NCBI GenBank assembly: GCA_017484135.1 | Contig: JAFUTQ010000016.1 | Coordinates: 1-50,696, forward strand | Origin: Lachnospiraceae bacterium | GTDB taxonomy: Bacteria > Bacillota > Clostridia > Lachnospirales > Lachnospiraceae | Length of the DNA stretch: 50,696 nucleotides | Direction of reading: 5' to 3' | Shown here: positions 21,564 to 50,696 of the stretch, in pieces | Numbering within the stretch: position 1 is the first letter of the stretch | Layout of the letters: every line of letters begins with the position of its first letter | Program-made: the position numbers and the translations under genes | Notes under the pieces: generated by a model | Seen by the model: the letters and a program-made list of their open reading frames with translations, nothing else | Told to the model about the DNA's origin: nothing | Databases searched by the model: none

Positions 21564-21944
21564 ATGAAGCGTGTAATCGCAACAGACAAGGCACCGGCAG
21601 CGATCGGACCGTATTCTCAGGCAATTGAAGTAAACGGAATGGTTTATACATCCGGTGTGATTCCGGTAATCCCGGAGACGGGAATCATTCCCGAGGGCTC
21701 CGCGGAGCAGGCAAAGCAGGCATTGACCAATTTGTCCGCGCTGCTGGAGGCGGCCGGCTCGGGAATGGATCAGGTGGTAAAGACTACGGTGTTTATCAAA
21801 GAAATGAATGATTTTTCGGACATCAACGAGGTGTATCGCACGTTTTTTACGGAGCCTTTTCCGGCCAGAAGCTGCGTGGAGGTTGCCCGTTTGCCGAAGG
21901 ATGTGCTGTTGGAAATTGAAGCGGTTGCGGTTATAAACGGATAG
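21564..21944 (+). CDS. ridA: RidA family reactive-intermediate deaminase
   Basis: 126 residues from ATG 21564 (AAAGGATG upstream; ATG 21555 would be too close). RidA hydrolyses 2-aminoacrylate-type enamines/imines from PLP enzymes. The sequence has the full family pattern: APAAIGPYSQAIEVNGMVYTSG, the catalytic-site arginine in PARSCVEVARLPKDVLLEIEAVAV. Its stop codon is directly followed by repeat R1 copy A. Confidence 0.95.
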   Translation: MKRVIATDKAPAAIGPYSQAIEVNGMVYTSGVIPVIPETGIIPEGSAEQAKQALTNLSALLEAAGSGMDQVVKTTVFIKEMNDFSDINEVYRTFFTEPFPARSCVEVARLPKDVLLEIEAVAVING

Positions 21945-22050
21945 CACCCCTGCGCGGGTAAAATCGAACAGGGAAGACGATCTTCCCTGCTCGTTGCGCG
22001 GGGTGCGTCCGACGCAAGTCGGAATATTTCCTTACGCACCCCTGCGCATA
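21944..22050 (-). repeat. dispersed structured repeat R1, copy A
   Basis: Read on the minus strand it starts with TTATGCGCAGGGGTGCG at the T-tract of a terminator and folds into two hairpins: GGGGTGCGT...ACGCACCCC enclosing TCCGAC/GTCGGA, then CGAGCAGGGAAG/CTTCCCTGTTCG. The end repeats CGCGCAGGGGTGC. Three further copies are at 25041, 39181 and 50556. Confidence 0.85.
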
Positions 22051-22082
22051 AAAAATGCCGCACCATCTGTGCGGCATTTTGC
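22050..22082. terminator. bidirectional terminator between ridA and yjfB
   Basis: AAAATGCCGCAC (22052-22063) and GTGCGGCATTTT (22069-22080) form a perfect 12-bp stem with a 5-nt loop. T-tracts exist on both strands; the minus-strand tract runs into repeat R1 copy A. Confidence 0.9.
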
Positions 22083-25007: not shown

Positions 25008-25042
25008 ACGACAGAGCCGCCGATGGGAAGGCGGCTCTTTTT
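25008..25042 (+). terminator. terminator of the NlpC/P60 gene
   Basis: AGAGCCGCC (25013-25021) and GGCGGCTCT (25030-25038) form a 9-bp stem followed by TTTTT, whose end is the start of repeat R1 copy B. Confidence 0.92.
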
Positions 25043-25144
25043 ATGCGCAGGGGCGCGTAAGGATGCATTCCGGCTTGTGCCGGACGCGTCCCGCGCGACG
25101 AGTAGAGGGAGAAAATCTCCCCCTGCTCGATGAGACAGGGGCGC
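25041..25144 (+). repeat. dispersed structured repeat R1, copy B
   Basis: Begins at the T-tract with TTATGCGCAGGGGCGCG. Outer stem GGGGCGCGT/ACGCGTCCC encloses TCCGGC/GCCGGA; second hairpin CGAGTAGAGGGAGA with TCTCCCCCTGCTCG. It ends with an imperfect copy of the leading motif (ACAGGGGCGCC). Compensatory changes relative to the other copies support the fold. Confidence 0.85.
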
Positions 25145-25217
25145 CCAATGTGCAAAGTGCACAAAAGAAAGAAAAATATCGAAAAAAGTATTCAAAAAAT
25201 AAAAATGTCAAAAAAGG

Positions 25218-29843: not shown

Positions 29844-30044
29844 GTGCAAAGTGTTCACATCGCCTAAGGTAGCGGCACGCGCCGCTTCGCGTCACCTGCC
29901 AAATCGTCGGAAGCCATTCGAAAAATGAGTTTCACTCATTGGGCTTCCTCCTACGATGTGAACTCTTTGCACAAGAATCGTTTTGGAAAGCTTGCTTTCC
30001 AAAACGATTCCTGTGCAAAGAGTCTATGTCGGCTACGCCGACAT
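29844..30044. repeat. composite hairpin region after ftsX containing repeat R2
   Basis: This 284-bp gap holds nested palindromes and no gene. GTGCAAAGTGTTCACATCG (29844-29862) pairs with CGATGTGAACTCTTTGCAC (29954-29972), 18 of 19 bases. Its loop is one copy of repeat R2 (about 29861-29953, minus orientation relative to the copy at 47928). Then a perfect 16-bp stem (29975-29990 with 29995-30010), a third GTGCAAAGAG (30013-30022) and an 8-bp stem ATGTCGGC/GCCGACAT (30026-30044). Some stem probably ends ftsEX transcription. Confidence 0.8.
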
Positions 30045-38565: not shown

Positions 38566-39144
38566 CAGCGACGTAAAAAAGATCTCAAACCCGATCGCAA
38601 TCAAGATCACACCCCCAAGGATCGCAGCCTTACCGGAAAATCTGGTTCCGAACCTTTTTCCGATCTCCAGACCGGACATGCAGATGACAAAGGTTACCAA
38701 TGCAATGATCAATGCACACACCAGAGCCATCGGAAAATCATATTCTGCGATCGTAAAGCCGACAGATAAGGCGTCGATGGAGGTTGCCACACCCTGTACC
38801 AAAAGCGCGGCGATTCCGATTTTCGGCTTTTCGATCTCCGCATGCTTGCTTTTGATTCCCTCGATCAGCATTTTGCCTCCGATAAAAAGGAGCAGCAATA
38901 ATGCGATCCAGGGAATAAATTTCTGAAATGCGCTGAAATACTGAATGACCGTATGCACACAGATCCATCCGGTCATCGGCATGATTGCCTGAAACAGCGC
39001 AAACACTCCCGCGATTTCGCACATCTTTTTCTTTCTCATGGCGGGCTCATTTAATCCATTGGCGAGGGATACGGAAAAAGCATCCATCGCCAGTCCCACA
39101 CCGAGCAATACAGAGTTAAAGAAAAATAATAAGTTCCATTCCAT
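38560..39144 (-). CDS. mntP: manganese efflux pump MntP
   Basis: 194 residues, six membrane helices in two inverted halves. Both conserved aspartate motifs are there: GLAMDAFSVSLANGL in helix 1 and GVATSIDALSVGFT in the second half; also GGKMLIEGIK. MntP exports excess Mn(II). GGAGG sits nine bases before the ATG at 39144. The long leader (39145 to about 39545) contains a yybP-ykoY riboswitch, a terminator hairpin and a copy of repeat R1, consistent with Mn-induced expression. Confidence 0.95.
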   Translation of the reverse strand: MEWNLLFFFNSVLLGVGLAMDAFSVSLANGLNEPAMRKKKMCEIAGVFALFQAIMPMTGWICVHTVIQYFSAFQKFIPWIALLLLLFIGGKMLIEGIKSKHAEIEKPKIGIAALLVQGVATSIDALSVGFTIAEYDFPMALVCALIIALVTFVICMSGLEIGKRFGTRFSGKAAILGGVILIAIGFEIFFTSLL

Positions 39145-39180
39145 CTTTTGTTTCCTCCCGAATTACGTTTGATGATTTCT

Positions 39181-39278
39181 CGCGCACCCCTGCGCAATCG
39201 AGTGGGGGTGCCCCTACTCGCCGCGCGGGGTGCGTCCGGCGCGAGCCGGAAAATTTCTTTACGCACCCCTGCGCATAA
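39181..39278 (-). repeat. dispersed structured repeat R1, copy C
   Basis: On the minus strand it starts in the T-tract of the mntP leader terminator. Outer stem GGGGTGCGT/ACGCACCCC encloses CCGGC/GCCGG; second hairpin CGAGTAGGGG/CCCCCACTCG; final direct repeat GCGCAGGGGTGCG. It lies between the riboswitch expression platform and the mntP ribosome binding site, so it is part of the mntP messenger. Confidence 0.85.
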
Positions 39279-39317
39279 AAAAACCAAGTACAGTCCGAAA
39301 CTATACTTGGTTTTTCA
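39279..39317 (-). terminator. riboswitch-controlled terminator in the mntP leader
   Basis: AAACCAAGTATA with TGTACTTGGTTT on the minus strand (39313-39302 with 39292-39281) followed by a run of T. The segment AACTATACGTGG at the 3' side of the preceding hairpin can pair with CCAAGTATAGTT of the terminator (11 of 12), giving an antiterminator option. Confidence 0.7.
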
Positions 39318-39372: not shown

Positions 39373-39532
39373 CGCAATTTAAAACAAGCCAGATCATAAG
39401 GAGGAAGTACAATGAGCGAAGCTCATTTTATAATGGCTTCCGACGACTTGGCAGGTGACGCGAAGCGGCGCGTGCCGATTCCTAAGATCAGTATGTTGAC
39501 TTGCTACGATATACGCTTGCTACTCCCCCATG
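39364..39532 (-). promoter_or_regulatory. yybP-ykoY manganese riboswitch aptamer with inserted repeat
   Basis: On the minus strand: closing CATG (39532-39529), the family hallmark GGGGAGTAGC (39528-39519), GTCAACA (39500-39494) and GAGACT (39373-39368), then the pairing CATG (39367-39364). These are the conserved elements of Mn(II)-sensing yybP-ykoY RNAs, and mntP is a standard target. Between GTCAACA and GAGACT about 95 nt belong to repeat R2, occupying the variable arm. Mn binding should favour transcription past the terminator. Confidence 0.8.
39397..39490 (+). repeat. repeat R2, copy 2, inside the riboswitch
   Basis: Plus-strand reading: AAGGAGGAAG, the hairpin AATGAGCGAAGCTCATT, then GGCTTCCGACGACTTGGCAG and GTGACGCGAAGCGGCGCGTG, ending near CCTAAGATC. 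The same succession is in the loop of the palindrome at 29844 and, shortened, at 47928. GATC on both edges of the insertion can pair, so the repeat forms the end of the arm. Confidence 0.8.
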
Positions 39533-47026: not shown

Positions 47027-47947
47027 ATGTTAGATGTCTGTTTGTTAGGCACCGGGGGAATGATGCCACTGCCCAGCCGATGGCTGACCTCCCTGATGAC
47101 AAGGTACAACGGTAGTAATCTGCTGATCGATTGCGGGGAGGGAACGCAGATTGCGATTAAGGAAAAAGGCTGGAATTACAAACCGATTGACGTGATTTGC
47201 TTTACGCATTTTCATGCGGATCATATCAGCGGGCTGCCGGGCATTCTGCTTGCAATGGGGAATGCGGAGCGCACAGAGCCGCTGACGCTGGTGGGGCCGA
47301 AGGGCTTGGAACGGGTAGTTACTTCACTGCGTGTCATTGCACCGGAGCTTCCGTTTCCGTTGAAATTTATCGAGCTGTACGATGCAGAGGAACAGATAGA
47401 GCTTTGCGGCTATCATATCAAAGCGTTTCGGGTCAATCATAACATCGTCTGCTATGGATATACCATAGAGATCCCCAGAGCCGGGAGATTTCAATTGGAA
47501 CGGGCAAAGGAACACGGGATTCCGCAAAGGTATTGGAGTCTTTTACAGAAGGGACAGACGGTGGACTGCGAGGAGGGGCATTTTACTCCGGATCTGGTTA
47601 TGGGGCCGCCCCGAAAGGGAATTAAGCTGACGTACACAACGGACACCAGACCGACCGAAAGTATTCGGAGAAATGCTGAAAATTCGGACTTATTTATCTG
47701 CGAGGGAATGTATGCCGAGAAGGATAAGCTCAAAAAAGCAAAGCAATATAAGCATATGACCTTCTATGAGGCGGCACAGCTTGCAAGAGAAGCGGATGTC
47801 AGGGAATTGTGGCTGACACATTTCAGCCCGTCTCTGATTCATGGAGAAAACTATATGGACGAAGTCCGCAAAATTTTTTCGCAGGCACATCTTGGGAAAG
47901 ACGGAAAAACTGTCGAATTAGATTTTGAGGAGGAAGCTCATTTTTGA
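47027..47947 (+). CDS. rnz: ribonuclease Z (metallo-beta-lactamase fold)
   Basis: 306 residues. RNase Z cuts precursor tRNA at the 3' end of genes lacking encoded CCA, which fits both tRNA genes in this window. Motifs: LGTGGMMPLPSRW, the zinc-binding THFHADHISGLPG, VNHNIVCYGY, TTDTRPTES and LTHFSP. Compared with family members, the last residues EEEAHF come from repeat R2, whose start forms the stop codon. The upstream AGAGGGAAAC is the likely ribosome binding site. Confidence 0.93.
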   Translation: MLDVCLLGTGGMMPLPSRWLTSLMTRYNGSNLLIDCGEGTQIAIKEKGWNYKPIDVICFTHFHADHISGLPGILLAMGNAERTEPLTLVGPKGLERVVTSLRVIAPELPFPLKFIELYDAEEQIELCGYHIKAFRVNHNIVCYGYTIEIPRAGRFQLERAKEHGIPQRYWSLLQKGQTVDCEEGHFTPDLVMGPPRKGIKLTYTTDTRPTESIRRNAENSDLFICEGMYAEKDKLKKAKQYKHMTFYEAAQLAREADVRELWLTHFSPSLIHGENYMDEVRKIFSQAHLGKDGKTVELDFEEEAHF

Positions 47948-48000
47948 ATGGCTTCCGACGACATGGCAGGTGACGCGGAGCGGCGCGTGCCGGTACATTA
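47928..48000 (+). repeat. repeat R2, copy 3, over the rnz stop
   Basis: GAGGAGGAAGCTCATTTTTG followed by AATGGCTTCCGACGACATGG, CAGGTGACGCGGAGCGGCGC and GTGCCG. Compared with the two other copies it lacks about 11 nt (one arm of the small hairpin). It encodes the last residues and stop of rnz. Confidence 0.75.
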
Positions 48001-48071
48001 GAGGATGAAAAAATGAATTCAAATCACGCAAAGTAGCGCGTTCTGAAATATATTAAAAAGGAGGAATGCTT

Positions 48072-50524: not shown

Positions 50525-50557
50525 ATCATCATCTGTTAGGTTGAGATGATGATTTTT
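50525..50557 (+). terminator. terminator of tRNA-Ser
   Basis: ATCATCATC (50525-50533) and GATGATGAT (50544-50552) form a 9-bp stem followed by TTTTT, where repeat R1 copy D begins. Confidence 0.85.
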
Positions 50558-50659
50558 ATGCGCAGGGCTGCACAAGGAAGATATTCGGCTGATGCCGAAT
50601 GCAGCCCGCGCGGCGAGTAGGGGAGCAATTCTCCCCTACTCGATTGCGCAGGGACGCAC
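50556..50659 (+). repeat. dispersed structured repeat R1, copy D
   Basis: Starts TTATGCGCAGGGCTGCA in the T-tract. Outer stem GGGCTGCA/TGCAGCCC encloses ATTCGGC/GCCGAAT; second hairpin CGAGTAGGGGAG/CTCCCCTACTCG; final repeat TTGCGCAGGGACGCAC. The outer stem differs from copies A and C at matched positions on both sides, which is the best covariation in the set. Nothing is recognisable in the last 37 bases of the window. Confidence 0.85.
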
Positions 50660-50696
50660 AAATATGGAAATCATAAGTAATTCGGAGAAGTACCCA

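Follow-up and report, generated by a model that had tools for sequence, protein, structure and literature searches.

We identified a family of short repeats of 2 hairpins in a 50,696-nt stretch of a Lachnospiraceae bacterium genome (contig JAFUTQ010000016.1; hereafter the window), which is probably a non-autonomous mobile DNA element, recognized by its structure and integrated in one orientation 3' of a hairpin with a T-rich tail. Its units share a covarying structure, mostly stand behind terminators in a nearly constant orientation, and are spread in a lineage-specific manner; truncated copies lie on the right side of arrays. An earlier note had reported 4 copies in the window; all 4 were found at the positions it gave, the outer and inner stem sequences were as it had written them, and the shared fold of 2 hairpins was reproduced by single-strand DNA folding of the 4 units (z-scores -5.3 to -9.6). 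Its intervals were located correctly but were too long, each running on into a partial second copy on the 3' side, and its description of the repeat missed the terminator hairpin and T-run directly before every copy. The features of the window, with the full units corrected, are as follows.

22050..22076 (-): terminator-like hairpin TGCCGCAC/GTGCGGCA with T-run, abutted by copy A (sequence; class-wide placement statistic)
21963..22049 (-): copy A, full unit of both hairpins, P1 and P2 (covariance model 92.3 bits; fold z -9.6)
21944..21962 (-): incomplete second copy (GCGCAGGGGTGC, 21944-21955) plus short spacer, 3' of copy A (from the sequence alone)
25014..25042 (+): terminator GAGCCGCC/GGCGGCTC with TTTTT behind an NlpC/P60 gene, abutted by copy B (sequence; gene call)
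25043..25131 (+): copy B, full unit, P1 at 25045-25096 and P2 at 25099-25129 (model 86.1 bits; fold z -6.0)
25132..25146 (+): partial second copy ACAGGGGCGCCC behind copy B (sequence; right-flank score 30)
39277..39310 (-): terminator-like hairpin with T-run, abutted by copy C (sequence)
39197..39276 (-): copy C, full unit, between the terminator-like hairpin and the start of an MntP-like gene (model 84.3 bits; gene call)
39182..39196 (-): partial second copy TGCGCAGGGGTGCGC behind copy C (sequence; right-flank score 35)
50526..50557 (+): terminator TCATCATCT/AGATGATGA with TTTTT behind a tRNA-Ser gene, abutted by copy D
50558..50644 (+): copy D, full unit (model 92.9 bits; fold z -8.6)
50645..50660 (+): partial second copy TGCGCAGGGACGCACA behind copy D (read in the sequence only)

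The motif TTTTTATGCGCAGGG had 4 exact matches in the window; with up to 3 mismatches, 4 were found against 1.96 expected, and this count is not outstanding by itself because 17 of 100 shuffles reached 4. The partial copy behind copy A overlaps the final stop-codon base of an L-PSP gene. The right-flank score of copy B lies between the 95th and 99th percentiles of shuffles and is weak alone, and that of copy C exceeds the 99th percentile but not the shuffle maximum of 36. Given the position of copy C between a terminator-like hairpin and a gene start (39141-39310, minus strand), this hairpin may be a leader attenuator; Rfam yielded no known riboswitch in that interval. Three GA-cis RNAs (RF02987) were also identified in the window, at 39396-39486(+), 29864-29955(-), and 47925-48001(+), and most of the first aligns at 83% to one place in the congener G006.

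Units of the family are mostly 80-91 bp long and read (A)TGCRCA, P1, GCGCGGCGA, P2, and CTCGAT, with the left end TGCRCA usually preceded by an A. P1 comprises an unpaired A, an outer stem, an asymmetric loop rich in purines (by eye, near RGGAAAT), and an inner hairpin, and is variable in sequence; P2 is much more constant, with the common form CGAGTAGGG...CCCTACTCG. Neighboring units adjoin without a gap at 16 of 21 tandem junctions. In an alignment of 60 units from this genome and 21 others (alignment A4, which excludes the pattern-scan set with fixed P2), 94.5% of cells were paired, and the covariation score was 0.486 compared with 0.05-0.12 for slid partners. The compensatory changes claimed from the 4 window copies held in this wider set, with all 25 pairs changing on both sides. 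On a tree of A4, 75 branches had a double change that preserved the pair, whereas slid partners gave 0-7 and 200 random re-pairings averaged 2.2, never exceeding 8; the covariation is thus overwhelming. P1 is the extreme case: in a set of 116 units, which includes pattern-scan units with fixed P2 and is biased for P2, one of its pairs was C-G in 60 and G-C in 44. Templated correction of quasi-palindromes can also yield compensatory changes in DNA palindromes.

The repeat is real and larger than the earlier note claimed. Its dispersal was confirmed by at least 44 units in this genome (covariance model, E<=0.01), a lower bound from 150 of 724 candidates scored with a model whose 17 training units came from this genome, and covariance-model searches of this genome and other Lachnospiraceae put the copies of rich genomes in the tens. 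Across the whole genome, a 14-base pattern of the left end, allowing 1 mismatch, matched 55 times, compared with 3 times for the reversed control; at least 2 of the 55 matches (L016, L025) read as coding sequence and are probably chance. Within the genus, 4 of 8 genomes matched (own included), with 0-2 units in the 7 others. Across the family, 20 of 299 genomes matched at E<=1e-5 (own included, scattered), and 2 of 391 did in a sample of the whole class, both belonging to this family, with 14 and 11 candidates scored per genome in the 2 screens so that these counts are lower bounds. A broader model applied to 40 chosen genomes (22 carriers and 18 others) found 37 units each in G000 and G179, 17 each in G136 and G304, 14 in G270, 13 in G278, and 10 each in G011 and G023, and none in 17 of the 18 others, the remaining one (G010) having a marginal match (E 9.9e-6). 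Further, a contig scan with a pattern that fixes P2, and hence with a bias for P2, returned at least 118 stretches, mostly assigned by record title to Lachnospiraceae or to genera usually placed there; some other titles read "uncultured bacterium" only, and one names a "Bacillus sp." bin.

Median identity between units was 0.95 within G304, 0.92 within G011, 0.83 within G179, and 0.70 within G000, compared with 0.59 between genomes, and the nearest relative of a unit lay in the same genome for 78 of 87. At the sites of copies A and B, the element was absent from all 7 congeners, with a terminator-like hairpin and T-run present (by eye), in a comparison too diverged to show target-site duplication. 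For copy C, a relative of the sugar-kinase gene was found in G003, G004, G006, and G007, the other flank not being syntenic, and the model matches of those genomes lay on other contigs. The congener copies L061-L064 had no flank match to the own-genome loci compared, which cover part of the own copies. At the compared sites, the copies are lineage-specific insertions. A copy was also present on a viral contig (L210, 8080-8166), approximately 550 bp before a terminase gene; this phage-plasmid-like contig encodes a rolling-circle Rep, ParA/ParB, terminase, and portal genes and is a possible vehicle between species.

To analyze the placement of the units, we scored a terminator where 5 or more of the 9 bases before the unit were T and the hairpin reached -8 kcal/mol or lower (RNA parameters). 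A strong hairpin and T-run stood immediately upstream of 135 of 157 array-first units, compared with 1 of 112 control points 300 nt away and 4 of 156 right flanks; the set derives from 181 distinct units, 160 of them array-first, with 3 dropped for short flanks, and includes P2-biased scan units. The other 22 fell short of these thresholds. A T-run alone is insufficient: at the loci of this genome, 14 of 77 intergenic T-runs without the element had a hairpin of this kind, compared with 12 of 13 with it. The stems of the terminators vary in sequence from copy to copy, and the orientation is nearly always the same, with the left end towards the terminator. Newer units also lie directly behind the P2 hairpin of an older unit. 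In G304, a hairpin with a T-rich tail preceded an intact left end, by eye, in 15 of 16 copies, the hairpin at 1 of these (L253) being that of a GGGGACG-type repeat; the exception, L257, has lost its left end. An Rfam scan of 39 own-genome loci placed the element after a lysine riboswitch (L012), a cobalamin riboswitch (L056), and tRNA genes at L009 (a partial copy), L020, and L057. At L012 (1424-1748, minus strand) and L056 (1156-1584, plus strand), the element lies between the riboswitch and the following gene and lengthens the leader.

The reading of the repeat as an RNA, which the earlier note had advanced, was not supported. An RNA helix is expected to tolerate G.U and avoid A.C, and across the 60 units of A4, outer P1 and basal P2 together held 27 mispairs of each kind. 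Over all 25 pairs in the register of the covariance model, there were 81 G.U and 37 A.C (inner stem alone, 45 and 4). Once the inner P1 was placed in each unit's own register, 3 and 2 remained (59 of 60 units), in a post hoc re-registration that located the stem by Watson-Crick pairs alone and penalized G.U and A.C alike; the G.U excess of the inner stem is therefore a register fault. In our reading, the copies are DNA hairpins that decay once inserted, without visible RNA-level selection. We rejected a conserved RNA gene or cis-regulator because of the mispair counts, the lineage-specific sites, and the partial copies, and the placement points to an integration rule. Retention of the units behind terminators as a functional RNA or regulatory element (in 3' processing, control of read-through, or insulation) would account for the strong structure and for the copies between a riboswitch and its gene at L012 and L056. 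It is nonetheless very unlikely, given that G.U is not favored over A.C in either stem set, that the compared loci hold no copies common to congeners, that partial copies are common, and that terminators of tRNA genes, protein genes, and riboswitches are used alike. The earlier note's remark that the repeat resembles no known RNA family agrees with the lack of Rfam matches at the 4 window copies; Rfam at the gathering threshold also gave none on the element at 40 loci, and in a permissive search of L012, L027, L022, and L007 all matches overlapping a unit were below gathering scores.

If the repeat is a mobile DNA element, its partial copies bear on how it is joined. Right flanks resembled the left half of a unit above the 99th percentile of shuffles in 35 of 158 cases, 25 of which exceeded the highest shuffle by more than 2, whereas left flanks resembled the right half at the 99th percentile in 7 of 157, 2 of them beyond the highest shuffle (both counts include P2-fixed contig-scan units). 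The 2 strongest left-flank matches (L272, L104) adjoin another unit, and the other 5 are near the cut-off. A half-copy search of 450,696 bases of this genome, window included, found 7 copies with both halves, 3 with the left half only, and none with the right half only, and its reversed control gave none at E<=0.01. At L270, L275, L277, and L153, the partial copy is of another P1 type than the preceding unit, and we read these as later truncated insertions behind P2. That such later copies behind full units often lack their right part suggests a joining or copying step anchored at the left end. This bias does not hold everywhere: in G304, the single partial copies were balanced, with right parts missing in 3 (C10, C74, and C62) and left parts in 3 (C1, C133, and C90, the last with a short diverged P1). 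Joining is therefore no more than likely to be fixed at the left end, and the preference for left ends could also reflect selection to keep terminators. At L055 (1371-3035, plus strand), a long open reading frame begins inside tandem units and encodes peptides such as RGAYGIFPAYAGRTPRGG before the real protein; false extensions of this kind may be present in annotations.

Passive copying, with no enzyme and with replication switching templates between T-runs behind hairpins, could explain both the left-end microhomology from shared T-runs and the variable right ends, and hairpins stall polymerases. It fits poorly with the 144 of 160 array-first units that end at CTCGAT followed by T (an end that the model favors), and with G304, where 14 of the 19 full or near-full units share 93-100% identity with one copy although they lie in different surroundings. 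These shared ends and near-identical units suggest a dedicated process, and we regard template switching as rather improbable.

We searched for a mobilizing enzyme by comparing the 22 carriers with the 18 other genomes, in both comparisons counting G010, with its marginal element match, among the others. RVT_1 (E<=1e-8) was present in 14 carriers and 13 others and absent from G179 (37 copies, 96% complete), G060, G148, and 5 low-copy carriers; as a mover, reverse transcriptase was rejected for this lack of correlation. A retroelement-like unit would use such an enzyme in trans, with the T-run end priming synthesis on antisense RNA, and would be fixed at the left and truncated at the right as a bacterial counterpart of SINEs with the target of group IIC introns. 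The partial copies on the right at array ends, together with those in the sample of this genome, speak for it, and group IIC introns are known to insert at intrinsic-terminator stem-loops (PMC4424553), the setting in which the element lands. Carriers without RVT_1, the lack of a wobble bias, the balanced truncation in G304, and the lack of a group II intron match at the element make it unlikely.

A second possibility is a derivative of Y1/HUH elements (IS200/IS605 or RAYT), moved in trans as single-stranded DNA, with ends in subterminal hairpins, insertion 3' of a short T-rich target, and no inverted ends. The anatomy of the unit (target, hairpin, hairpin, end) and its fixed orientation match this model, and Y1_Tnp (E<=1e-6) was present in 9 of 22 carriers. 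Against it, 11 of 18 others also had Y1_Tnp, and 13 carriers lacked it, among them G136 (17 copies, 99% complete) and G000 (83% complete). Of 46 Y1 loci, 18 were searched with the covariance model, and none gave a match at E<=1; a loose text match in L283 was without T-run or hairpin. The element was not seen near the 4 longer Y1 genes read (G304, G011), 3 of which adjoin a different repeat, of GGGGACG type. We consider this derivation doubtful. A Y1/RAYT transposase as the mover was rejected for its lack of correlation with carriers and the lack of the element in the 18 Y1 loci. The longer Y1/RAYT-like genes at L283, L285, and L286 (G011, G304) lie beside another palindromic repeat, rich in GGGGACGG/CCGTCCCC, which resembles CGTC-tagged REPs. 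Further, no transposase-like protein was seen by eye in the 25 largest clusters of open reading frames around copies, and no gene-bearing version of the element was found among 25 matches of a 97-base search in G304 (19 full or near-full, 6 short). Copies of the element may outlive their enzyme.

Among known systems, the element resembles REP, BIME, and REPIN sequences (whose RAYT is TnpA_REP) in being short, palindromic, intergenic, of high copy number, arranged in mosaic arrays, and non-autonomous. It differs from them in its two-hairpin unit with variable P1 and its precise landing at terminators; in addition, several rich genomes lack a Y1 protein, and the repeats do not flank the RAYT genes examined. 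PATEs are non-autonomous derivatives of IS200/IS605. Like such derivatives, the element has subterminal hairpins, a T-rich 5' target, a fixed orientation, and no inverted ends, but 13 of 22 carriers have no Y1 protein, and a hairpin is part of the target. Group IIC introns are far longer than the element. The target, a terminator stem-loop, is shared with them, whereas the element is approximately 80-91 nt, has no ribozyme, open reading frame, or Rfam match, and does not correlate with reverse transcriptase. Integron attC sites conserve structure over sequence and have an unpaired base in the stem; both traits occur in the element, but attC boxes were not seen by eye. IS1272 belongs to the IS1182 family. 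It recognizes a stem-loop as its target and replaces it (PMC5678879), whereas at the element the terminator hairpin stays in place. Unlike MITEs of DDE transposons, the element has no terminal inverted repeats, TGCRCA... and ...CTCGAT, compared by eye, not being inverted copies. It behaves like a repeat of the REP/MITE class with a group-IIC-like address, and lacks at least 1 tested defining feature of each compared family (REP/RAYT, MITE, and group IIC). We found no published description of such an element in titles or abstracts, and a term search of PMC3733652, on REP/RAYT, gave no match.

As a mobile DNA element, of the kind of small structured repeats, the repeat would be moved by an enzyme that recognizes its own 2 hairpins, probably as single-stranded DNA, and inserts it in a fixed orientation just 3' of a DNA hairpin that carries a T-rich tail. 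The landing sites would in effect be intrinsic terminators and the P2 hairpin of an earlier copy, and insertion behind P2 would build head-to-tail and mixed arrays. Joining would be precise at the left end (TGCRCA, usually with an A before it), and the copies would then decay after insertion without visible RNA-level selection. The single-stranded recognition, the copying direction, and the action in trans are inferred. A wider and more speculative version, which we hold possible but put forward tentatively, is a new class of elements addressed by shape, in which the enzyme would read any DNA hairpin with a T-rich 3' tail, join the left end, copy from left to right, and colonize gene ends and riboswitch terminators, with its own P2 serving as the next landing site.

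Strong covariation and many copies do not by themselves indicate an RNA; here they seem to mark a hairpin at the DNA level. Terminators are a harmless harbor for insertions, one that group IIC introns already exploit. An element of less than 100 bp with a IIC-like landing rule across a dominant gut family implies an undescribed hairpin-recognizing enzyme, which might serve to direct DNA to gene ends. In the genomes that carry the element, copies between a riboswitch and its gene lengthen the leader and may alter expression.
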